From the NCBI GenBank assembly GCA_900315095.1, contig OMXS01000029.1, forward strand, positions 1 through 32,401: DNA of 32,401 bases, given 5' to 3'. Source of the DNA: an uncultured Prevotellaceae bacterium (lineage in GTDB: Bacteria; Bacteroidota; Bacteroidia; Bacteroidales; Bacteroidaceae). Positions 9,357-30,022 of the stretch are shown here, piece by piece (within the stretch, counting starts at the first letter, position 1; every line of letters begins with the position of its first letter). A program made the translations under genes and the position numbers. The notes beneath the pieces are model-generated. The model saw only the letters and a program-made list of their open reading frames with translations. It made no database searches and was not told where the DNA came from.

Positions 9357-10489
9357 ATGTACACCCAAAACACTCCTGTGCATGTGCATCTGTGGCACAG
9401 AGGCTTCTGGGCATTGGCATTTGCCAACCTGCTGTTGTCGATGTCCGTGTTTATGTTCCTGCCAATATTGCCGTATTGGCTGGGACAGCATTTTGGGCTT
9501 AGTGCATCAAAGGTGGCGCTGCTCTTTGTCATACATGCCGTAGGCATCTATCTGCTCGGTCCCCGATGCTCGATGCTCGTCCAGCGCTATCGTCGGAACG
9601 TGGTGTGCGCCATATCCATTTTACTGACCTCTCTGTCGAGTTTCGTGCTATACTATTCGCTGTTATTCAGTTGGTTGGCTCTGTGTTCTATGGCCTTTCG
9701 CAGATGGTCCTTTCGGGCACTCTCATCATAGACGTCTGCGAGTCGTTCCAGCGCACCGAGGCGAATCATTCTGCCGCGTGGTTCGGGCGTTTAGGACTCG
9801 CCCTGGGACCTATTGCCGCCATACTTACAGCGCCCCGTTTTGGGTGCGAGACAGTACTCCTTGCATCATCGGTTTGCGGTTTGCTTGCAATGCTGCTCGT
9901 GCTGTTTACCGATTTCCCTTTCCGCGCTCCCGAGGACAATCTTAAGGCGTTCAGTACCGACCGCTTCTTCCTCACTCGCGGCATCTGGCTCTTCGTGAAT
10001 TTCATGATGATAATGATTGCTGTGGGCATCGTCGTTGTCAATCATCAGGACGTGCGCTTCTTCGTGCTGATGCTTGGCGGTTTTCTCATTTCGTTGCTCT
10101 CGCAGAAATTTGTCTTTGCCAATGCTGAGTTGAAGAGCGAGATACTCTCAGCCCTTGTGCTCATCATAGGCGCACTTCTGCTTATGATTTTCAGGGACTC
10201 TGATGTGGCGTCGCTTGCCGCCGCATTGCTTACAGGTGTCGGCGTGGGCGTTTCGGCCACCCGTTTCCTGCTGTTCTTCATCAAACTGAGCCCTCATTGC
10301 AAGCGAGGCACTTCGCAATCCACGTTCTTCCTTACATGGCAGTCGGGCCTTGCTTTGGGCGCCGCTCTCGGCATCGTGGCGGGCCAGTCGGGTGCTGGAT
10401 ATGTTGTTGCCCTTGCCTTTGTCGTGGTTGCCTTGCTCTTGTACCACTTCTTCACTCACACGTGGTTCATGAACAACAAGAGCCGTTGA
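9357..10489 (+). pseudogene. MFS transporter with an apparent frameshift
   Basis: Two overlapping frames together make one ~12-helix major facilitator protein of about 375 residues. The first (from ATG 9357) gives the N-terminal helices, including a start resembling HRGFWALAFANLLLSMSVF, and runs to a stop at 9729-9731. The second carries the rest, beginning clearly at FYGLSQMVLSGTLIIDVCES and passing EANHSAAWFGRLGLALGP to the stop at 10489. Family continuity passes from one frame to the other between about 9655 and 9690, equal to loss of one base. No slippery heptamer is visible there. It is a recent pseudogene or a sequencing/assembly error. Substrate unknown. Follows panB by 40 nt. Confidence 0.7.
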
Positions 10490-10630: not shown

Positions 10631-11494
10631 ATGAGACAACTGAAAATCTCTAAATCTATCACAAACCGTGAAAGCGCAGCGTTGGACAAATATCTGCAGG
10701 AAATAGGTCATGAAGAACTGATTTCTGTGGAGGAAGAAGTGGAACTGGCCCAGCGCATTAGGAAGGGCGACCGCAAGGCTCTCGAAAAACTGACAAAGGC
10801 AAACCTCAGGTTTGTGGTGTCGGTGGCTAAGCAGTACCAGAACCAGGGACTGTCGCTCCCAGACCTTATCAACGAGGGCAACCTGGGACTTATCAAGGCG
10901 GCAGAGAAGTTCGACGAGACGCGAGGCTTCAAGTTCATCTCGTATGCCGTGTGGTGGATACGCCAGAGCATACTGCAGGCAATAGCAGAACAGAGCCGTA
11001 TCGTGAGACTGCCTCTGAACCAGGTTGGCGCGATGAACAAGGTGAGCCGCATGCAAAGCAAGTTTGAGCAGGAGAACGAGAGACGCCCGAGTCTCGTGGA
11101 GATTGCCGAGAGCGTTGACCTGCCTGCCGAGAAGATAGAAGACGCCATGAAGGTGCAGTCGAGACATGTATCGGTGGACGCCCCGTTCATCGACGGCGAG
11201 GACAACAGCCTGCTCGACATACTGCCTAACGACGACGCTCCGATGGCAGACAACTCGCTCGTGATTGAATCGCTGAGAGACGAGATAAAGCGCGCCTTGC
11301 AGACCTTGAACGACCGCGAGCGGAAGATAGTGGAGGCGTTCTTCGGCATAGACCAGCCTGAGATGACTCTCGAGGAGATTGGCGACAAGTACGGCCTTAC
11401 CCGTGAGCGCGTGAGGCAGATTAAGGAGAAGGCCATCAGGCGTCTCCGCAACAACACCAAGAACAAGTTGCTCAGATCGTATCTCGGCAGCTGA
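10631..11494 (+). CDS. rpoD: Primary sigma factor (RpoD/SigA, Bacteroidetes type)
   Basis: A 287-residue group 1 sigma factor directing RNA polymerase to housekeeping promoters. Region 1.2 begins at [10 protein letters not shown]. Region 2 includes [20 protein letters not shown] and the -10-binding [15 protein letters not shown]. Region 3 follows, and region 4 has [21 protein letters not shown], the -33/-35-binding helix-turn-helix. There is no region 1.1 or long non-conserved insert, which is normal for Bacteroidetes primary sigma factors and accounts for their TAnnTTTG promoters. Strong own promoter upstream. The next gene starts 33 nt after the stop with no visible terminator or promoter between, so the RRE/kinase cassette downstream may share this transcript. 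Confidence 0.96.
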
Positions 11495-11527: not shown

Positions 11528-12028
11528 ATGAAGAAAGCATTATATATCATCATTGCCGTCTTGAGTATGGCAAGTACGGTGAGCATCATGGCAAAGGGCG
11601 GCGAAGAGCTGGCACAGAAGATGTATGTCTTCGGCGTGTCCACCTCTTTCAACGACAGCACGGTGTTCTTCACGGAAATCATGGAGCTAGAGGGCGCGTG
11701 GGTAGAGTCGAAGACAGGCTTCATCGTGGGCCGCGACAACTACAGTTATCAGTTGCGTGACCATCTGGAAAGCAAGGGATACCCCAAGCGCACATGCATC
11801 TTCATTTCTGGCAAGAACCTGAAGGACGTGACGAAGAAATACGACAAGCTGAAGTCGCGCTACGTGAAAAAGGGCGGCTCGGACATCCTGCTCATAGACA
11901 AGTCGGAGTTTACGTTCAAACCCATAGCTGCAATTCAGGGCACCAGTCAGGAGACACAAGCAGAGATGCCTAAGTCAAAGGGCAAGAAGAAACGCGAGAA
12001 ACAAAACAAGGCTCCAGCAGGTAAATAG
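11528..12028 (+). CDS. Secreted protein of unknown function preceding the kinase/protease/RRE cassette
   Basis: A 166-residue protein. MKKALYIIIAVLSMASTVSIMA is a signal peptide; AAGGA-like sequence precedes the ATG. The mature domain (about 24-135) contains VFGVSTSFNDSTVFFTEI, then DNYSYQLRDHLESKGYPKRTC, then a Lys-rich helix (KKYDKLKSRYVKKG). The last ~25 residues are strongly basic and low in complexity (KSKGKKKREK). It resembles conserved hypothetical Bacteroidetes proteins but I can assign no function. Only 5 nt separate its stop from the kinase start, so it is almost surely in the same operon and could be the exported client of that cassette (inference). Confidence 0.8.
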   Translation: MKKALYIIIAVLSMASTVSIMAKGGEELAQKMYVFGVSTSFNDSTVFFTEIMELEGAWVESKTGFIVGRDNYSYQLRDHLESKGYPKRTCIFISGKNLKDVTKKYDKLKSRYVKKGGSDILLIDKSEFTFKPIAAIQGTSQETQAEMPKSKGKKKREKQNKAPAGK

Positions 12029-12033
12029 AACTT

Positions 12034-12936
12034 ATGTCAACAGCAGATAACTACAAGTCATACTTCTTCAATATTGCAGAGCTGAACGTCAAGATAACCT
12101 TCAAGGAATCGAGATACAACAGCATGCGCTTATTGCCTTCCTTCGCTCCATTCAAAACGGCAGAGGAAGGCAAAGATCTTTTTTTCCATCTGACCATCGA
12201 CGACGAACTGCCGCCGGTCAGGGAGGGGAAGACAAGGATTGACAACTTCGATACCGGCAACGGACACACCATCGTGGACAAATTGCAGGACGGAGGCTAC
12301 CAATATATAATAAAAGACATCAACGATGCCGATTGCTGCATGCTGCAGACCAACAAGGACTTCGACGACTGCCGATGCGCCCTCAACGGCAACTACAACA
12401 TGAGGTGCTTCGGGCTTAACAACGCCCTGATGCTCATATTCGCTTTCGCTGGCAGCCATCGGCAGACCCTGCTCATTCATGCTTCGCTCGTGAGGAACAA
12501 CGGATGGGGATATGCATTCATAGCAAAGAGCGGAACGGGAAAGAGCACACAGGTGAGCAACTGGCTGAGATACATACCAGGCAGCGACCTCATGAACGAC
12601 GACAATCCTATAATAAGGGTGCTCGAAGACGGCAAGCCATACATCTACGGAGGTCCGTGGAGCGGCAAGACACCATGCTACCGCAACGTGAAGGCACCAC
12701 TTGGCGCGATAACACGAATAGACAGGGCTCAGCAGAACAGCGTTGACAGGCTAAGGCCGGTTGAGGCTTTCGCTTCCGTGCTGCCGTCATGCTCTTCGAT
12801 GAAGTGGGACAAGGAGATATTCAACAACGTGTGTAACACGGTAACAAGGATAGTAGAGACAACAGGGATTTTCATCCTGCATTGCCTACCTGACAAAGAG
12901 TCAGCAATAGTATGCCACAGGGAGATATCAAAGTAA
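12034..12936 (+). CDS. HPr-kinase-like P-loop kinase
   Basis: 300 residues. The C-terminal half has the HPr kinase/phosphorylase fold signature: LIHASLV with His149, P-loop AKSGTGKST at 164-172, and the acidic pair Asp189-Asp190 in LMNDDNP. A conserved-looking PWSGKTPCYRN follows at 208-218. The N-terminal ~130 residues resemble neither the HPr-kinase N-domain nor another family I know. The lasso-peptide kinases (PadeK type) belong to this broad group, so a peptide or protein substrate rather than HPr is plausible; no PTS genes are nearby. It overlaps the downstream peptidase gene by 25 nt, indicating coupled translation. Substrate is inference. Confidence 0.75.
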   Translation: MSTADNYKSYFFNIAELNVKITFKESRYNSMRLLPSFAPFKTAEEGKDLFFHLTIDDELPPVREGKTRIDNFDTGNGHTIVDKLQDGGYQYIIKDINDADCCMLQTNKDFDDCRCALNGNYNMRCFGLNNALMLIFAFAGSHRQTLLIHASLVRNNGWGYAFIAKSGTGKSTQVSNWLRYIPGSDLMNDDNPIIRVLEDGKPYIYGGPWSGKTPCYRNVKAPLGAITRIDRAQQNSVDRLRPVEAFASVLPSCSSMKWDKEIFNNVCNTVTRIVETTGIFILHCLPDKESAIVCHREISK

Positions 12937-13403
12937 CAGAAAAGCAATTCAGCAACGCTATACTGATTCCCGAAATCATAAAGATGATTAACGAGGGACA
13001 CACGGTTACGTTGCCGCTGAAGGGCTTCAGCATGAGGCCGTTCCTCGAGGACGGGCGCGACAAGGCGTTGCTTACAAAGCCCGTGAACCCCAAGGTGGGC
13101 GACCCTGTGCTTGCCGAGACCTATCCGTTGCACTTCGTCCTTCACAGAATCATAAAGATTGACGGCGACGATGTGGTGCTTCGTGGTGACGGCAATCTGG
13201 GCAACGAATACTGCAAGATGAGCGATGTGAAAGCAGCTGTCATAGGATTCTACCGCAAGGGCAGAACCACTCTCGACCGTACCGATGGGAAGAAATGGCG
13301 CGTATACTCGTTCGTGTGGATGCATCTCTCGCCTATAAGACGTTATCTGCTTGCGTTCCATCGCCGTATATGGCTTCGATTGTTCCCTAGCAAACATGCA
13401 TAA
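12912..13403 (+). CDS. S24/S26-family peptidase, Ser-His type
   Basis: 163 residues with the signal-peptidase core: LKGFSMRPFL gives nucleophile Ser40; FVLHRIIKIDGDDVVLRGDGN gives His78 where bacterial type I signal peptidases have Lys, plus the GDGN box (92-95). A Ser-His pair is the pattern of archaeal and ER (Sec11) signal peptidases. There is no N-terminal membrane segment; the C-terminus (WMHLSPIRRYLLAFHRRIWLRLF) is amphipathic and basic and might bind the membrane. The start at 12912 lies inside the kinase gene; an internal Met25 is less likely because it would cut the domain edge. Probably processes a peptide handled by the neighbouring kinase and RRE protein (inference). Confidence 0.78.
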   Translation: MPQGDIKVTEKQFSNAILIPEIIKMINEGHTVTLPLKGFSMRPFLEDGRDKALLTKPVNPKVGDPVLAETYPLHFVLHRIIKIDGDDVVLRGDGNLGNEYCKMSDVKAAVIGFYRKGRTTLDRTDGKKWRVYSFVWMHLSPIRRYLLAFHRRIWLRLFPSKHA

Positions 13404-13431
13404 TGACTGTTTCATTAAAACATAAATATAT

Positions 13432-13704
13432 ATGAAGACAAAACCAGGTTTCACGCTTCGTGACATTTGCGGCGAGTATATTATTGTTGCAGAAGGATTG
13501 GAAAACATCGACTTCAGCAACATAATAAGCCTTAACGAGTCATCGGCCTACTTATGGAAGAAGGTAGAGAAGATGGACTCCTTTACTGTAGAAGACCTTG
13601 CCCGTTTCCTGACAGACGAGTATGAGGTTGACATGAAAACGGCAATGGCCGACTCTGAAGCCCTCGCAAAACAATGGCTGTCGGTGGGGGTCGTAAGTGA
13701 ATAA
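13432..13704 (+). CDS. PqqD-family protein (RiPP recognition element)
   Basis: A 90-residue stand-alone PqqD-like winged-helix protein. The hallmark ISLNESSAYLWKKVE lies at 32-46, with the following FTVEDLARFLTDEYEVD helix and a C-terminal helix (ALAKQWLSVGVV). PqqD and related RRE domains bind leader peptides and present them to modifying enzymes. The gene closes the run kinase, peptidase, RRE, starting 28 nt after the peptidase stop. No radical-SAM, cyclodehydratase or lasso cyclase gene is present in the window, which is unusual for an RRE. Confidence 0.85.
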   Translation: MKTKPGFTLRDICGEYIIVAEGLENIDFSNIISLNESSAYLWKKVEKMDSFTVEDLARFLTDEYEVDMKTAMADSEALAKQWLSVGVVSE

Positions 13705-13879: not shown

Positions 13880-14353
13880 ATGGCAAAGTATAACATTACC
13901 GAGAAGAAAGAAAAGACAGCGGCGTATAGAACCCTAATAAACCCAAGTCTCATGGACAAGTTAGAGCAAAGAATTTTAGACATCATCTTCGCTCAAAAAA
14001 AGTACAGAGACCCCAACTATTCTGCTAAGAAACTCGCAGAGGAACTTAAAACAAACACAAGATATATCTCTGCGGTGGTAAATGTGAGATTCGGAATGAA
14101 TTACACATCGCTTATTAATAAATATAGAATTGAAGAGGCAATGGTAATTCTCGCTGATCCTGAATACCGCAAGACCAATATGGAGGACGTAAGCGCAATG
14201 GTTGGTTTCTCTAACAGACAGTCGTTCTATGCATCCTTCTACAGGGTTACAGGCATCACTCCGCGCGATTATAAACTTGCAAAGGAAAGTGCGGGCGAGG
14301 AAACGTCATATGCCAAGACAAAGAAGAAGGCTAAAAAAACAAAGCATAAATGA
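13880..14353 (+). CDS. Stand-alone AraC-type helix-turn-helix protein
   Basis: 157 residues with little beyond the AraC DNA-binding domain. The first HTH spans about YSAKKLAEELKTNTRYISAVVNVRFGM; the second covers MEDVSAMVGFSNRQSFYASFYRVTGITPRDYK, the classic AraC signature. There is no ligand-binding domain, only ~30 residues before the HTH and a Lys-rich tail (TKKKAKKTKHK). Such output-only AraC proteins are seen in Bacteroidetes, where they may sense through partners. It overlaps the next gene by 4 nt (ATGA), so it is translationally coupled to the DPP III-like peptidase; local regulation is possible but untested. Confidence 0.85.
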   Translation: MAKYNITEKKEKTAAYRTLINPSLMDKLEQRILDIIFAQKKYRDPNYSAKKLAEELKTNTRYISAVVNVRFGMNYTSLINKYRIEEAMVILADPEYRKTNMEDVSAMVGFSNRQSFYASFYRVTGITPRDYKLAKESAGEETSYAKTKKKAKKTKHK

Positions 14354-16308
14354 CGGTTGACAAATTCAGTTATTCTGATGAATCCTTCGCGGACATACAG
14401 ATGCTCCGTTACCAGTTGAAGGGTTTCGAGGACCTTTCGCTACAACAAAAGAAGTTAATTTATTATCTTTCTGAAGCAACACTTTATGGTCGAGACATCA
14501 CTTTCGACCAGTTCGGAAAGTACAACCTTATAATAAGAAAGACGCTCGAGGCGATTCTCCTATCGTATAAAGACGACAGGGAATGTGAGCAATTCAAGGC
14601 CCTTGAGGTGTATCTCAAGAGGGTGTGGTTCTCTAACGGCGTCTATCATCACTACGGGTGCGAGAAGTTCGTGCCAGAGTTTTCCAAGAGTTTCTTCATC
14701 GAGGCATTAAAGGGGGCGGACAAGGCTCTGCTTCCTCTTGACCGTTTCGGTACGACAGAGGAGTTGTGCCAGACGCTCTGCCGTGTTATATTCGAACCTG
14801 ATGTGCTCCCAAAGAGAGTGAACAAGGCCGAGGGTGCCGATGTGGTGGCTTCTTCAGCATGCAATTTCTATGAGGGCGTAAGTCAGAAGGAAGTGGAAGA
14901 TTTCTATAATGGCATGAAGAACGAGAATGCTGATGACAAGGAGCCGGTATCTTATGGACTTAACTCGAAACTGGTAAAGCGTGACGGAAAACTCGTGGAA
15001 CTCGTGTGGAGCGAGAACGGCATGTATGCCGATGCCATAAAGCACATCACCTACTGGCTGGAAAAAGCAGCCGGCGTGGCTGAGAATGACAAGCAGCGGC
15101 AGTATATAGAGACGCTTGTAAAGTATTACCGAACGGGCGACTTGCGCCTCTTCAACGACTATTGCATACAATGGGTTGGCGAGCACGAGGCGCAGGTGGA
15201 CTTCGTAAACGGCTTCATCGAGGTTTATGGCGACCCTCTCGGCCTTAAAGGTTCGTGGGAGGGAATTGTTGAGTATAAGGATTTAGAGGCCACGAGGCGC
15301 ACCCAGACAATCAGCCAGAATGCACAATGGTTTGAAGACCATAGTCCTGTTGACCCGCGTTTCCGCAAACAGAAAGTGAAGGGCGTAACGGCGAATGTAA
15401 TTTGTGCAGCCATGCTAGGAGGCGACGAGTATCCATCTACAGCAATAGGCATCAATCTGCCTAATGCCGACTGGATAAGGGCAGAACATGGAAGCAAGAG
15501 CGTCACTATTGGCAACCTTACCGATGCATATAACAAGGCGGCTCGTGGCAGCGGATTCAAGGAGGAGTTCGTGGTCGATGCCGATACTATAGCCATGATA
15601 GAGAAATATGGAGATGTATGCGATGACCTTCATACAGACCTTCATGAATGCCTTGGTCATGGTAGTGGACAGTTGCTGCCTGGTGTTGACCCCGACGCTC
15701 TTAAGGCATACGGAAACACGATAGAGGAGGCGAGGGCAGACCTTTTTGCACTCTATTACATTGCTGATGAGAAACTTGTGGAACTGGGTCTCACGCCAAA
15801 CGAAGAAGCATACAAGAGCCAGTATTATACTTATATGATGAATGGCTTGATGACTCAACTTACAAGAATTAAGCCAGGCAACGATATCGAGGAGGCTCAC
15901 ATGCGCAACCGCGCTCTCATAGCACATTGGTGTTTTGAGAACGGCAACGCGATACAGATGGAGAAGAGAGACGGAAAGACATTCGTTAACATCAGCGACT
16001 ATAAAGAACTGAGGGTCCTTATCGCTCGGTTGCTTGCTGAGATACAACGCATTAAGAGCGAGGGCGACTTCGAGGCTGCAAAAACACTCGTGGAGAACTA
16101 TGCCGTCAAGGTTGACGCCGACCTTCACAAAGAGGTGCTCGAGAGATATGAACGGCTGCATCTTGCTCCATACAAGGGCTTCATAAATCCTGTAATGACA
16201 CCTGTTACTGACAGCAACGGCGAGATAACAGACATCAACGTCGACTACACAGAGGGGTATTCTGAGCAGATGCTTAGATATAGCAAACAATATGGTACAT
16301 TGGTTTAA
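14350..16308 (+). CDS. Dipeptidyl peptidase III-like zinc peptidase (M49)
   Basis: A 652-residue M49 metallopeptidase that releases N-terminal dipeptides from short peptides. The zinc site is HECLGH at 432-437, the same sequence as in the Bacteroides thetaiotaomicron enzyme, followed by EEARAD at 459-464, which supplies the third ligand (Glu460). Length fits DPP III. Unlike many Bacteroidetes homologues, no signal peptide is visible at this start (MTVDKFSYSDESF), so a cytosolic location is likely. The ATG at 14350 overlaps the HTH gene by 4 nt, which favours this start over any internal Met. Confidence 0.92.
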   Translation: MTVDKFSYSDESFADIQMLRYQLKGFEDLSLQQKKLIYYLSEATLYGRDITFDQFGKYNLIIRKTLEAILLSYKDDRECEQFKALEVYLKRVWFSNGVYHHYGCEKFVPEFSKSFFIEALKGADKALLPLDRFGTTEELCQTLCRVIFEPDVLPKRVNKAEGADVVASSACNFYEGVSQKEVEDFYNGMKNENADDKEPVSYGLNSKLVKRDGKLVELVWSENGMYADAIKHITYWLEKAAGVAENDKQRQYIETLVKYYRTGDLRLFNDYCIQWVGEHEAQVDFVNGFIEVYGDPLGLKGSWEGIVEYKDLEATRRTQTISQNAQWFEDHSPVDPRFRKQKVKGVTANVICAAMLGGDEYPSTAIGINLPNADWIRAEHGSKSVTIGNLTDAYNKAARGSGFKEEFVVDADTIAMIEKYGDVCDDLHTDLHECLGHGSGQLLPGVDPDALKAYGNTIEEARADLFALYYIADEKLVELGLTPNEEAYKSQYYTYMMNGLMTQLTRIKPGNDIEEAHMRNRALIAHWCFENGNAIQMEKRDGKTFVNISDYKELRVLIARLLAEIQRIKSEGDFEAAKTLVENYAVKVDADLHKEVLERYERLHLAPYKGFINPVMTPVTDSNGEITDINVDYTEGYSEQMLRYSKQYGTLV

Positions 16309-24469: not shown

Positions 24470-25504
24470 ATGAAAAGAAGTGTTTTAGGACTATTGGTCA
24501 TCATTGCTCTGTATAGTTGTAGCGAGAAGAATACGAGTAAAGTCAAGGCGCCAATACGAGTGGTTACAGAAGTGGTTCATGCCACTAATGGAGAAAATGG
24601 GCAAACCTATGTGGGTATTGTAGAAGAGCGTGAGGCTACTGCAGTAAGCTTTACTGGAATGGGTGTAGTGAAGCGTTTGTATGTAAGGGAGGGCCAGGTC
24701 GTCAGACGCGGACAACTCATTGCAGAAATGGATGACACCCAGGCCCGTAACATACTCAGCGGTGCTGAGGCACAGATGACTCAAGCCAATGATGCCTTAC
24801 ATCGTTACCAGATGCTCCACGATAATGGTTCGCTGCCTGAAGTGCAATGGGTTGAGATTCAAAGTAAGGTGGCCCAAGCTAAATCGCAACTGGAGGTGGC
24901 CAAAAAGAATCTTGCAGATTGCAGGTTGGTGGCTCCTGTTAACGGCATTGTCGGCAAGAAGATGATTGGAGCTGGTGAGACTGCTTTGCCATCTCAGGCC
25001 GTGGTGAGTATCCTTGACATTAGTATTGTTAAGGTGAAGGTGGCTGTTCCCGAGTCTGAAGTGAGCGGTATTAGTGCTAATACGCCTTCATATATAAAGG
25101 TTGAAGCCATTGACAGGAGTTTTGCAGGAGGTAAGATAGAAAAAGGTGTAGTGGCCGATGCCTTGACACATACCTACGATGTTCGCATCAATGTTGTAAA
25201 TAGCGAGCGTAACCTGTTACCGGGAATGGTAGCCAGCGTGCGTTTTGAAAGTCATGCCATCCCCCCATCTTTAAAAGACGAGGGAAGTATTTATACCGTG
25301 CCAGTTGCATCTGTCCAACGCAATGCCAATGGCGGTTTGTTCGTATGGACAATAGCTAAAGACAGTACTGCTCATCGTACCGATGTGAGCATCGGTGATA
25401 CAAAAGGCAACCGTGTGATATTGAAGAGTGGCGTCAGCGAAAATCAACGTGTCATCACCGAGGGTTACCATAAGCTAAGCGAGGGAACGAAAGTGGTGTT
25501 TTAA
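24470..25504 (+). CDS. RND efflux periplasmic adaptor (MFP) lipoprotein
   Basis: 344 residues. A lipoprotein signal ends in LYSC with Cys17. The adaptor layout follows: a beta-barrel/lipoyl half (VKRLYVREGQVVRRGQLIAEMD), an alpha-helical hairpin rich in Gln/Ala (about 95-145), the second lipoyl half (ADCRLVAPVNGIVGKKMIGAGE) and a membrane-proximal C-terminal domain. It links the inner-membrane pump to the outer-membrane channel. First gene of the three-gene efflux operon, 30 nt before the pump gene. Confidence 0.92.
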   Translation: MKRSVLGLLVIIALYSCSEKNTSKVKAPIRVVTEVVHATNGENGQTYVGIVEEREATAVSFTGMGVVKRLYVREGQVVRRGQLIAEMDDTQARNILSGAEAQMTQANDALHRYQMLHDNGSLPEVQWVEIQSKVAQAKSQLEVAKKNLADCRLVAPVNGIVGKKMIGAGETALPSQAVVSILDISIVKVKVAVPESEVSGISANTPSYIKVEAIDRSFAGGKIEKGVVADALTHTYDVRINVVNSERNLLPGMVASVRFESHAIPPSLKDEGSIYTVPVASVQRNANGGLFVWTIAKDSTAHRTDVSIGDTKGNRVILKSGVSENQRVITEGYHKLSEGTKVVF

Positions 25505-25534
25505 TAGACAGTTGTATAATTGAGAATTGACAAT

Positions 25535-28500
25535 ATGAAGCGAAAGATGTCATGGCTCAAATGGCCATTAGAGCATTACTCAATATCATTGCTCATCATA
25601 GGAATATTGTTTGTGCTGGGCATTTATGGCATGTATATCATGCCGAAGGATGAATTCCCCCATGCCACCATCCGTCAGGGTGTGGTGGTGGCTGTCTATC
25701 CCGGAGCCACTAGCGAAGAGATAGAACAGCAGGTGGCTCTTCCATTGGAACGTTACCTATTTACATACGGTGAAGTGAAGCGTTCCAAGACTACAACGAC
25801 GTCTCAAAATGGCTTGTGTGTCGCCATGGTTGAACTGAACGACAACGTGAATAATAAGGACGAAGTATGGTCTAAGATAAAGCATGGTCTGAACAGTTTT
25901 AAGTCGCAGTTGCCGGCAGGTGTAATTGCCATCATGGTCAACGATGATTTCGGCAACACGTCCGCATTGCTGATTGCTATCGAGAGCAGCCAGCGCAGCT
26001 ACCGTGAACTGAAGAAGTACAGCGACGACCTATCTGATCGCTTACGTCATATTCCGTCGGTGGCCAATGTGAAGATATTCGGTGAACAGAAGGAGCAGAT
26101 AACGCTCTATGTTGACCGTCAGCGGTTACAGGCCTACGGCATTGGTCAACAGGTCCTTTTCTCTCACTTACAGGCTCAGGGCATTACTACCATGAGTGGT
26201 AGCATCAGCGACAAAGACCAGCAGGTGCCCATACATATTGAACCTACGGAGAACAGTCTTGAGGAAATAGGAAATCAGATTATCTTCAGCGACCCTGCTA
26301 CTGGCAAGGTGGCACGTGTGCGCGATGTGGCTCGTGTGGTTCGTGAATACGACAGCAATGCCAGTCGTATAGAGCAAGACGGACACCCTTGCATATTGCT
26401 TTCGATGGAGATGACGGCAGGCAACAATGTGGTGATTTATGGCGAGGAGGTGGACAATGTGTTGCAGAAATTTCGCGAAGACGAACTGCCCGACGATGTC
26501 AACATTACCCGCATCGCTGACAAACCCAAAGTGGTTGCCATGAGTGTAAGTTCGTTCTTGCGCGACCTTCTCATATCGATGGCCATTATCATCTTGGTCA
26601 TGATGGTGTTATTCCCCATTCGCTCGGCTATTGTAGCTGCCATCACTATACCGTTGAGCACGTTTGTATCAGTTGCAATCATGTATATGATAGGCATCGA
26701 ACTCAACATCGTCACACTAGCAGCACTAATCGTTGTGCTGGGTATGATAGTCGATAATAGCATCGTGGTCATCGATGGATATTTGGAATATCTAGGCAAG
26801 GGCTATGAACCAAATAAGGCTGCCATAGAGAGTGCACGCCAGTACTTCATGCCAATGATGCTGGCAACAATTTGTATCTGTGCCATTTTCTATCCATTCC
26901 TGCTTACTTTTAAGGGCATGTTTTATGATGCCATGAAGGACTTCCCGTTGACCATTACCATAAACCTCATGGTGTCGCTCTTTCTGGCAGTAACCGTAAT
27001 CCCTTTCTTAGAGGTTCGCATCATTAAGCCTAACAAAGTGACTACGGGCGGAAATAAAATCACTCAGTTCGTACAGCGCACATATAACAAAGTGCTCGAT
27101 TGGACATTCGGTCATCCGTGGATGACTATCGGTGGCGGTATGGGTGTCATAGTGCTGTCAACACTCATAATGCCCTCGCTGAAGATTCGCCTATTTCCTT
27201 ATGCCGACCGCAACCAGTTTGCCGTAGAGATTTTCTTGCCTGACGGCAAGGGACTCTCTGAGACTGAGGCCGTGTCTGACTCCGTGTATAGAGTGCTTCG
27301 TCTTGATGAGCGAATCACAGGTGTAACGAGTTTCATTGGTTGTTCGTCTCCCCGTTTCATGGATGCTTATGCACCACAGATGGCAGGCAATAATTTCGCA
27401 CAGTTTATCGTTAACACTACGTCGGATAAGGCCACATTGGATTTGCTTGCCGAATACCAACCTCGTTTGAGCGAGGCTTTTCCTAATGCCTATGTAAAGT
27501 TCAAGAGACTTGACTATTTGTCCGTTCCCGAATTGGAATACCGTTTCTATGGTGAAAATCTTGACTCGTTGCATGTGGTGGCTGAACGTCTTATGGACCT
27601 CATGCGTAAAATGCCTGAACTAGAGTGGGTGCATACCGACTTTATGCAACCTTATCCTATTATTAATGTAGAACTTGATCCTGTAGCCTCGTCACAGTTG
27701 GGCATCACTCGCTCTACAGCTGCTTTGGCAATCAGTTCCACAACGAGTGACCTGCGCATAGGGCAAATGTGGGAAGGTGACTATGAACTGCCCATTGTGG
27801 TAAAGGACAATAGCGATATGACCTACTCTGATATCCAGAATCTTGGTATTGCTACCCCTGTCAGTATGTTATCTGGTGGTCTTAACTCCACCAACAATAC
27901 TGTACCATTGCGACAAGTTGCACATGTCTGTCCAAAATGGTCTGAGAGTCGTATCATCCATCGTTCAGGCGAACGTTGCATCACAGTTACTGCACAATTC
28001 GCCCAAGGAGTTTATACAAGTCCTATTGAAAAACGTATTGTAAAGATGATGCAAGAAATCGAGTTGCCACAAGGTGTGCGTTGTGAGGTAGGTGGCGAGA
28101 TAGAATATGGCGACGAAGCATTACCTCAAATCTTTGGAGGCATCAGCATCGCTATGCTCATAGTGTTCTTCTTCTTACTTTTCAACTTTAAGAAATATGG
28201 CATCACAACCGTGTGCATGGCAGCCCTTGCTCTGATGATTCCTGGTGCGCTCATCGGATTGGGCATGATGAACCGTGCACTTGGATTGACATCCATATTC
28301 GGACTTATTACGCTGATGGGTATGATAATGCGTAATGAGATTCTTATCTTTGAGCATGCCATTGACCTCATAAAAAAGTATGTGGCCGAAAATGGAGATT
28401 GGAACGTTGATCGCAATGCATATAATAGAGCAGTTCGACAAGCTGCCTATGATGCTGGCAAACGCCGCATGGTACCTATCTTCCTCACCACCGCCACGAC

Positions 28501-28645
28501 TGCTGTTGGCGTAGTGCCTATGATTATTGCCCAGTCGTCATTCTGGATGCCTGTGGGAGTTACCATTTTTGCAGGTGGAATCGGTTCACTTGTCATGGTT
28601 GTTACCATGCTCCCAGTTGTTTATTGGAAAGTATCTACAAAATAA
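25535..28645 (+). CDS. RND-family efflux pump, inner-membrane permease
   Basis: 1036 residues with the 12-helix, two-large-loop RND architecture. TM1 is near 13-33 (SLLIIGILFVLGIYGMYIM); the helix cluster 340-480 and its repeat near 860-1030 are clear. In the TM4 relay motif GMIVDNSIVVID, Asp407 is kept but the second acid of AcrB is Asn408; in TM10, GMIMRNEILIFEHA has Arg933 where AcrB has Lys940. This fits a non-AcrB RND subgroup that still uses proton motive force. The open frame starts at a TTG (25520), but the ATG at 25535 is the natural start. Substrates unknown; the AraC neighbour suggests inducible drug, bile or peptide efflux (inference). Confidence 0.93.
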   Translation: MKRKMSWLKWPLEHYSISLLIIGILFVLGIYGMYIMPKDEFPHATIRQGVVVAVYPGATSEEIEQQVALPLERYLFTYGEVKRSKTTTTSQNGLCVAMVELNDNVNNKDEVWSKIKHGLNSFKSQLPAGVIAIMVNDDFGNTSALLIAIESSQRSYRELKKYSDDLSDRLRHIPSVANVKIFGEQKEQITLYVDRQRLQAYGIGQQVLFSHLQAQGITTMSGSISDKDQQVPIHIEPTENSLEEIGNQIIFSDPATGKVARVRDVARVVREYDSNASRIEQDGHPCILLSMEMTAGNNVVIYGEEVDNVLQKFREDELPDDVNITRIADKPKVVAMSVSSFLRDLLISMAIIILVMMVLFPIRSAIVAAITIPLSTFVSVAIMYMIGIELNIVTLAALIVVLGMIVDNSIVVIDGYLEYLGKGYEPNKAAIESARQYFMPMMLATICICAIFYPFLLTFKGMFYDAMKDFPLTITINLMVSLFLAVTVIPFLEVRIIKPNKVTTGGNKITQFVQRTYNKVLDWTFGHPWMTIGGGMGVIVLSTLIMPSLKIRLFPYADRNQFAVEIFLPDGKGLSETEAVSDSVYRVLRLDERITGVTSFIGCSSPRFMDAYAPQMAGNNFAQFIVNTTSDKATLDLLAEYQPRLSEAFPNAYVKFKRLDYLSVPELEYRFYGENLDSLHVVAERLMDLMRKMPELEWVHTDFMQPYPIINVELDPVASSQLGITRSTAALAISSTTSDLRIGQMWEGDYELPIVVKDNSDMTYSDIQNLGIATPVSMLSGGLNSTNNTVPLRQVAHVCPKWSESRIIHRSGERCITVTAQFAQGVYTSPIEKRIVKMMQEIELPQGVRCEVGGEIEYGDEALPQIFGGISIAMLIVFFFLLFNFKKYGITTVCMAALALMIPGALIGLGMMNRALGLTSIFGLITLMGMIMRNEILIFEHAIDLIKKYVAENGDWNVDRNAYNRAVRQAAYDAGKRRMVPIFLTTATTAVGVVPMIIAQSSFWMPVGVTIFAGGIGSLVMVVTMLPVVYWKVSTK

Positions 28646-28648
28646 AGT

Positions 28649-30022
28649 ATGAAAAAAAGTATTATTATAGTAATTGCAGCGGTTTGCCTCCCTTTGTCAG
28701 CACAGGTGGCAAGTCCACTCCATCAAAGGGATGAACAGGGGGAGATATTGTCACTTCAGCAGATTCTCGACTCCGCACGTAAGAATAATATTGCTATTCG
28801 CCATGCGCAACAGAGTATAGATGCTGCTGTGGAGCAGCGCAAGGAAGCATTTACAAAGTATTTTCCGAATGTCAGCGGTACAGGATTGTGGTTCAATGCC
28901 AATAAAGGTATGGCAGAGATTACAATCAACCCCTCAGAAGTAATACCTTCGTCGTTGGCATCCACGATTACTGCTCATTTGCCCGCCGAGGCCTTGGCTG
29001 CATTGGCCAGTCCCATCAGCGTCTCGATGATGAAGAACGGTGCCATCGCAGGTATTACAGCCATACAGCCAGTATATTCAGGTGGGCAAATTGTAAATGG
29101 CAACCGTTTGGCTAAGGTTGGTGAGGATGTTGCCCGTTTACAACTGCAACTCTCTGAAAACGAAGTGGAGAGGACTGCCGAACAATATTTCTGGCAAATC
29201 GTCTCTCTTCAAGAAAAGATAAAGACTGTTGCTGCAGTTGAAACCATGCTGTCAGATATTCATAGGGATGTTGATGTGGCGGTACGTGCAGGCTTGATTC
29301 TTCGCAATGACCTCCTACAAGTGCAACTGCGTCAGAACGAAGTGGAGAGTCAGAAGCTGAAACTACATAACGGCATCAGCATCGTCAAACAACTGTTGGC
29401 TCAATATTGCGGACTTCGCGACACCACCTTCGTACTGTCAGTAGATCATGATGCTGTTCCCGACCTTCCTGTCAGGCAAAATTACGGACAAGCATTGCTC
29501 AGCACTCCCGAATATCAGCTATTGGACAAACAAGTTGAAGTTGCAAAATTACAAAAGCATATTGCAGTTGGTCAAAATCTGCCAACAGTTGCAGTCGGTG
29601 CTGGTTACAACTATCATAACATGCTAGACAACAACCGTACCTTTGGAATGATATTTGCAACCGTCAGCGTTCCTATATCCGACTGGTGGGGTGGTTCCCA
29701 TGCCATCAAGCGCAAGAAGATAGCGTGCCAACAGGCACAGGAGCAACTTGCCGATAATGCCCAACTGCTTACTATTCGCATGCAGAATGCTTGGAACAAC
29801 GTAGTGGAAGCCCGTCAGCAACTTGATATAGCTCAACGCAGCATTGAACAAGCCGATGAGAATTTGCGCATACATCGCGACTACTACCGTGCTGGCACAT
29901 GCAAGATGGCTGACCTGCTTGAAGCGCAACTGTTCTATCAGCAGGCATGCGACAAACGTACCGATGCCTATGCTGACCTGCAAAACAAACTCTTGGAATA
30001 CAAACAATCTGTTGGGCAATAG
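28649..30022 (+). CDS. TolC-like outer-membrane efflux channel
   Basis: 457 residues. The signal peptide MKKSIIIVIAAVCLPLSA is followed by Q. Two repeats of the outer membrane factor fold are visible: SLQQILDSARKNNIAIRHAQQSIDAA with the beta-strand segment near FPNVSGTGLWFN, and later LDKQVEVAKLQKHIAVGQNLPTVAVGAGYNY with long coiled coils. It would form the trimeric exit duct of the efflux pump. It starts 3 nt after the pump stop, so the three genes make a complete tripartite system. Confidence 0.93.
   Translation: MKKSIIIVIAAVCLPLSAQVASPLHQRDEQGEILSLQQILDSARKNNIAIRHAQQSIDAAVEQRKEAFTKYFPNVSGTGLWFNANKGMAEITINPSEVIPSSLASTITAHLPAEALAALASPISVSMMKNGAIAGITAIQPVYSGGQIVNGNRLAKVGEDVARLQLQLSENEVERTAEQYFWQIVSLQEKIKTVAAVETMLSDIHRDVDVAVRAGLILRNDLLQVQLRQNEVESQKLKLHNGISIVKQLLAQYCGLRDTTFVLSVDHDAVPDLPVRQNYGQALLSTPEYQLLDKQVEVAKLQKHIAVGQNLPTVAVGAGYNYHNMLDNNRTFGMIFATVSVPISDWWGGSHAIKRKKIACQQAQEQLADNAQLLTIRMQNAWNNVVEARQQLDIAQRSIEQADENLRIHRDYYRAGTCKMADLLEAQLFYQQACDKRTDAYADLQNKLLEYKQSVGQ

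Follow-up and report, generated by a model that had tools for sequence, protein, structure and literature searches.

Three tightly packed genes at 12034-13704 of the window (the whole stretch of DNA that was analysed, 32,401 nucleotides from an uncultured Prevotellaceae bacterium) very probably form the tailoring core of a Bacteroidales RiPP pathway similar to that of the linear polyphosphorylated peptides (LPPs) and made up of one fixed cassette and dispersed precursors. A conserved core, a precursor family, the co-occurrence of the two, operon linkage in relatives and the coupling of precursor genes to partner genes are apparent in the sequences compared. Binding, phosphorylation, cleavage, export and a role for the partner are the steps predicted from them, and these would run as follows: a PqqD-type RRE would bind the YxxP leader of small precursors, an HprK-like kinase would phosphorylate a Ser just past the leader (a step shown for the LPPs of Bacillota in the main text of Popov et al. 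2026, Nat Commun, PMC13381572), a signal-peptidase-like Ser-His enzyme would then cut off the leader, and the product would be finished and exported by an NTP transferase and an MsbA-like exporter whose genes lie at other places in this genome. The Prevotella core, at a fixed place near rpoD, would serve several precursors encoded in trans at scattered sites, and each of these would be made together with a large surface or secreted protein. The cassette and the two genes 5' of it are:

10631..11494, + strand: RpoD/SigA-type sigma factor (SIG), a syntenic neighbour (Pfam/NCBIfam scan)
11528..12028, + strand: UP, a small protein with a signal-peptide-like N-terminus (by eye), a kept neighbour without Pfam/NCBIfam family
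12034..12936, + strand: HprK-like P-loop kinase, 300 aa, predicted peptide Ser kinase and LppK counterpart (conserved motifs; weak ScmC, HprK_rel_A, PEPCK and HprK matches)
12912..13403, + strand: S24/S26-type peptidase, archaeal-type signal peptidase I-like, 163 aa, predicted leader peptidase and LppS counterpart (Ser40, His78, GDGN)
13432..13704, + strand: stand-alone PqqD-type RRE, 90 aa, predicted leader-binding protein and LppB counterpart (PF05402; TfuB1 and LppB profile matches)

Sequence features of the kinase, peptidase and RRE

The preliminary description of this DNA had recognised a kinase, a Ser-His peptidase and a stand-alone PqqD-type RRE in these genes, and the residues that it named in the kinase and the peptidase are present. 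The three ORFs lie on the same (+) strand, those of the kinase and the peptidase overlapping by 25 nt, and the proximity of the sigma factor gene is probably just the genomic address of the cassette. The kinase found no match in the Pfam scan of the window protein. Against NCBIfam it matched ScmC with E=1.7e-5 and 24.3 bits (cut-off 125) and HprK_rel_A with E=0.0025 and 17 bits (cut-off 200), scores so far under the family cut-offs that membership in either was rejected and the protein is taken as a weak relative of the two. ScmC and HprK-related A kinases adjoin PqqD proteins. A profile of 15 relatives of the kinase matched PDB chains weakly throughout (PEP carboxykinase with E=0.0044, ABC-transporter P-loops from E=0.014 and HPr kinase 1ko7 with E=0.29), and because PEP carboxykinase and ABC-transporter P-loops are among these matches, the similarity lies mainly in the P-loop region.

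Residue conservation was counted over 40 kinases and 38 peptidases from the fetched neighbourhoods of relatives. His149, Ser166, Gly167, Gly169, Lys170, Ser171, Thr172, Asp189, Asp190 and PWSGK (208-212) are kept in all 40 kinases and Thr168 in 39 of them; the motifs SGTGKST and N188-D-D are conserved. Ser40 of the peptidase is present in 37/38 and His78 in 38/38, and its GDGN motif is likewise conserved. The match of the peptidase to Pfam PF00717 is weak and under the cut-off (E=0.026); archaeal signal peptidase I (TIGR02228) is the top NCBIfam match of both peptidases scanned, below cut-off in each case (E=0.004 for the window protein and 2.2e-6 for that of locus L097), and a profile of 15 relatives matches signal peptidase I and SEC11 chains with E 0.015-0.027. 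The identities of the kinase and the peptidase, both of which fall below the curated cut-offs of every named family, are predicted from motif, context and weak profiles, and conservation of the named residues supports the view that both are active enzymes.

The RRE matches PqqD (PF05402) with E=1.8e-12, above the curated cut-off, and its profile matches the lasso RRE TfuB1 (5.8e-8) better than LppB (9x8z; E=1.3e-5), so a discrete RRE like that of LPP clusters is present here. Asp74 is invariant and Asn35 is kept in at least 90% of 19 RREs; in the profile alignment (with a deduced numbering shift of 18) these residues of the window RRE align with Asp70 and Asn33 of LppB, which hold the leader in 9x8z according to the main text of PMC13381572.

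Could the cassette be the remnant of a lasso-peptide cluster that has lost its cyclase? The RRE profile is nearest to lasso RREs (TfuB1), and paeninodin-type lasso clusters are described (main texts of PMC13381572 and PMC7533575) as holding an HprK-like kinase, a PqqD/B1 RRE, an NTP transferase, a lasso cyclase and a B2 peptidase, with leaders that in Bacillota mostly carry WxxP; an RRE, an NTP transferase and a kinase predicted to be of this type are shared by the Bacteroidales system. Their cyclase C and B2 proteins, however, were found neither among the 16 window proteins nor among the 10 neighbour proteins of relatives that were scanned, a signal-peptidase-like enzyme stands here in place of lasso B2, the catalytic-type residues and motifs are intact, and there are many precursors with intact leaders (below), all of which makes a lasso remnant extremely unlikely. 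No cyclase, radical-SAM, YcaO or peptide-type ABC exporter was found among the 16 window proteins scanned against Pfam.

Spread, gene order and larger operons

Within the family, 206 of 251 genomes have the kinase, 207 the RRE and 204 the peptidase, and each gene occurs in 25 of 30 genera. At the order level the kinase occurs in 43/295 genomes, and in the phylum it is rare (8/296 genomes at a stricter threshold). The preliminary description had considered that the three genes might be adjacent only in this genome, and had proposed a synteny search; the order is in fact conserved across Prevotella-type genomes, kinase-peptidase-RRE being kept in 73 of the best 80 named loci. UP lies immediately 5' of the kinase in 68 of the same 80 and 5' of a C11-kinase pair in 4 more, and the arrangement SIG-UP-(C11)-KIN is found in 54/80. 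The closest named relative among the matches listed is Prevotella koreensis, at 82% identity. The exceptions to the order are L209 (peptidase and RRE displaced, on the opposite strand), L236 (peptidase undetected; NTP transferase, RRE and exporter genes accompany the kinase), L232 (an RRE match 5' of the kinase, in a 5.4-kb stretch) and L200, L224, L229 and L258 (RRE undetected, in stretches of 3.2-11.6 kb). The preliminary description had also allowed for homologues always sitting beside a known RiPP synthase; this does not appear to be so, as the 10 neighbour proteins scanned include no known cyclase or synthase.

Several features of the surroundings were seen in addition. The C11 gene, which encodes a clostripain-family peptidase, lies between UP and the kinase in some genera (L074:8330-9460, L233, L234, L240 and L242). 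An AraC-type regulator gene followed by an M49 peptidase gene lies 3' of the cassette at 13880-16308 of the window; Prevotella koreensis (L184) has this pair beside its cassette, and in L068 the pair is a few kb off, on the opposite strand. Peptidase or kinase matches fall inside open frames of 659-684 aa at L087:7756-9810 and in L299-L301, which suggests natural fusions, possibly with an exporter. In L086, L088 and L096 the cassette genes lie amid Wzz-type and polysaccharide-export genes, which is reminiscent of the capsule loci in which LPPs of Bacillota are reported to lie (main text of PMC13381572).

Some other genera have a larger operon, kinase-peptidase-RRE-nucleotidyltransferase-ABC exporter, in which the nucleotidyltransferase matches PF14907 (E=3.3e-33) and the exporter PF00664/PF00005, with MsbA as its nearest NCBIfam model. 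Neither gene is seen beside the window cassette, which in this respect differs from the LPP clusters of the main text of PMC13381572, where both are in the cluster. The genome that carries the window has an NTP_transf_5 match (E=4.6e-35) on contig 26, amid apparent polysaccharide genes, and its best exporter match, 39% identical, is on contig 31 (the next full-length matches are 24-25% identical). A peptide route by phosphorylation and proteolysis, as proposed in the preliminary description, is therefore well supported by synteny, by co-occurring candidate precursors (below) and by the Bacillota LPPs (main text of PMC13381572), but the cassette is not the minimal system envisaged there, since an exporter and a nucleotidyltransferase adjoin it in relatives and have counterparts elsewhere in its own genome. 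The earlier statement that the window holds no transporter was mistaken: it encodes an RND efflux set at 24470-30022, complete with HlyD-type, AcrB-type and OEP components by Pfam scan, and an MFS-like protein (9566-10489) whose match is under the cut-off.

The presence of the cassette in ~82% of family genomes and its place near rpoD, unlike the patchy Bacillota LPPs (main text of PMC13381572), might mean that the kinase and peptidase have a housekeeping role on another cellular protein, with the RRE as a reused scaffold. We regard this as very unlikely, because the cassette genes of relatives sit with an exporter, an NTP transferase or a precursor, and 33 of the 45 genomes without the kinase are also without detected peptides.

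Candidate precursor peptides and their association with the cassette

The candidate precursors of the LPP-like pathway are small proteins of ~40-90 aa that have a YxxP leader and, usually 19-20 residues past its Tyr, a Ser; their tails are acidic and vary. Short ORFs (45-70 aa) near five cassette clusters of other genera have the YxxP motif in common, and these ORFs led to one member in the window's own genome and to matches in 40/41 genus genomes at a loose E<=1, the best peptide having an E below 0.01 in 35 of the 41. A first regular-expression hunt for YxxP ORFs returned mostly noise and was superseded by a profile of the leader, built from 40 N-termini with seeds taken partly from cassette neighbourhoods. 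This profile finds at least one peptide in 199/251 family genomes at E<=0.1, a threshold at which about one chance match per ten genomes is expected, and up to 23 in a single genome. The commonest residues in 91 collected peptides are K-K-x-Y-x-x-P-x-x-E-V followed by hydrophobic-A/C-A/G-Ser, and 74 of them have their first Ser 19 or 20 residues after the Tyr; since the 91 were gathered using YxxP and the leader region, these features are partly selected. The last 15 residues are 25% D/E and 7% K/R, with a Trp among them in 62/87. Pairs with similar leaders have cores of median identity 0.27, compared with 0.26 for random pairs (85 pairs, including 5 self-pairs); similar leaders with cores no more alike than random are the pattern expected of a leader attached to a variable core. 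No family name was found for the peptides in NCBIfam (8 scanned) or Pfam (3 scanned). No precursor was found in the window, and the nine peptides of its own genome at E<=0.5 are all in trans to the cassette; just 4 of the nine have the Ser at offset 19-20.

Small ORFs that co-occur with the cassette, which the preliminary description had suggested looking for, were thus found, and they track the kinase over the 251 genomes and also within genera. Both are present in 187 genomes, the kinase only in 19, a peptide only in 12 and neither in 33 (Fisher p=3.8e-18), and the median number of peptides per genome is 4 with the kinase and 0 without it. When permuted within genera (some genus labels being inferred), the 187 genomes observed to have both compare with 177.8 +/- 1.8 expected (p<=5e-5). 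Nine of the 19 kinase-only genomes have a weak kinase match (E above 1e-40), and one of the 19, G367, has a peptide that had been missed; eleven of the 12 peptide-only genomes are <95% complete, and the other, G403, is 99% complete.

Physical linkage was seen at both taxonomic levels. At least 6 of 30 order-level kinase loci (1.5 kb on each side) hold a peptide (L014, L019, L020, L023, L024 and L025). Of 20 larger regions, 10 have a peptide gene immediately upstream of the kinase (two of these peptides match at E 0.03-0.05), and in 8 the order is RRE-peptide-kinase; these 20 regions were chosen from the 43 order-level genomes with six already known to be positive, so that 4 of the 14 others are newly positive, and the profile used included none of their sequences. 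In the remaining 10 clusters no local precursor was recognised, the ORFs returned by a pattern re-search being unlike the family by eye. Within the family, a peptide lies <=10 kb from a cassette gene in at least 8 genomes by eye (G258, G431, G510, G322, G480, G438, G521 and G327), the first four of which had supplied seeds to the leader profile.

Partner genes and comparison with LPP pathways

The peptide genes are also tied to genes of large proteins. A peptide lies <=150 nt behind a gene for a protein with a G-[IVL]-Y-[IVL]-x-N/G-G-K-K-like C-terminal tail in 38/87 cases, as against 4/977 same-strand gene pairs; 17/87 precede a lipoprotein-like gene (by pattern only), and 32/87 have neither partner by these patterns, in several cases owing to the end of the stretch or to an overly strict tail pattern. 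In the window's own genome 9/9 peptides (E<=0.5) sit 3-20 nt behind tail-protein genes, and as this spacing was no search criterion it supports the weak peptide matches as genuine. In L243 the two genes overlap by 4 nt, the peptide starting within the end of the tail gene. A rule that every tail protein has a peptide was rejected, since of the 15 tail proteins encoded near cassettes only 2 have a YxxP ORF behind them, compared with 27/1161 other genes (loose pattern; Fisher p=0.05). The scanned partners have BspA-type leucine-rich, InlB-type, Calx-beta or chitobiase-type domains, one being without any; one downstream partner has GLUG motifs, and one shows a weak similarity to fimbrillin (PF13149, E=6.5e-5, under the cut-off). 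By these matches the partners are surface- or secreted-type proteins. The C-terminal tails, which may be type IX secretion signals, gave no Pfam or NCBIfam match to such a signal in any of five proteins scanned, each a tail protein or an upstream partner (L175, L176, L163, L164 and L143); the sole weak type IX match is internal and in a different, downstream partner (L104).

The YxxP proteins might instead work for their partner genes, say by chaperoning or regulating secreted proteins, without being cassette substrates, and their co-occurrence with the kinase would then reflect shared ancestry. The precursors of the window's own genome, which have no linkage to the cassette and follow genes for large proteins, fit such a role, as do the 38 peptides behind tail-protein genes. 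It is nevertheless unlikely, as the association of kinase and peptide persists within genera, a peptide gene lies between the RRE and kinase genes in the 8 distant Bacteroidales regions noted above, and YxxP is a known RRE-binding motif whose Tyr and Pro are needed for efficient binding (main text of PMC13381572).

How closely does the Bacteroidales pathway resemble that of LPPs? The LPP RiPPs, described for the lpp cluster of Paenibacillus alginolyticus, are encoded with a signal-peptidase-like LppS, a discrete RRE LppB, an HprK-like LppK, an NTP transferase LppN and an MsbA-like LppD; their precursors have 35-200 aa and the motif YxxPxVLxHQxIxFETxxS, with a Ser 18 residues from the Tyr, and it was shown biochemically in Bacillota that LppK adds several phosphates to core Ser3 and that LppS cuts the leader (main text of PMC13381572). 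Counterparts of all five are found here as genes (a discrete RRE, an NTP transferase, an MsbA-like exporter, an archaeal-type signal peptidase and a kinase predicted to be HprK-like), and both systems have a YxxP leader, a variable C-terminus, a Ser soon after the leader and no cyclase (here among the proteins scanned). The candidate precursors are of the LPP kind in size, YxxP N-terminus and variable C-terminus, though in trans in the window's own genome, and their mostly 19-20-residue Tyr-Ser spacing is within 1-2 residues of that of LPPs. Because these parts match, we consider the two to be the same kind of machine. The leader motif here (Y..P..EV ... L-A/C-A/G-S) is otherwise unlike that of LPPs, the precursors are, unlike those of LPPs, dispersed and tied to genes of large proteins, and the window cassette is without an exporter and NTP transferase in its cluster, for which last reason we call it an LPP-like variant and not an LPP cluster. 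LPPs are patchily distributed in Bacillota, to which they are "restricted" according to the discussion and "predominantly" confined according to the results of PMC13381572 ("Bacteroid" does not occur in its main text), whereas the cassette here is in Bacteroidales, near-universal in the family and at a fixed locus. No report of a Bacteroidales system was found in the part of the literature that was covered.

If this reading is correct, the LPP-type pathway would widen from a patchy, mainly Bacillota trait to one common in the Prevotella family, found in human and ruminant microbiomes. It would have its proposed substrates in a large family of small proteins without a name in the libraries scanned, and the purpose of phosphorylated linear peptides would become testable through their coupling to surface-type protein genes. 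A further reading, which we hold to be less likely than not, is that the one rpoD-linked cassette of Prevotella and relatives serves the whole genome: it would phosphorylate and trim peptides of which as many as 23 were detected in one genome, and each of these would be made together with a surface or pilus-like protein whose export, anchoring or marking at the cell surface it would aid. This would be a peptide-modification pathway for surface-protein biogenesis, not for chemical warfare.
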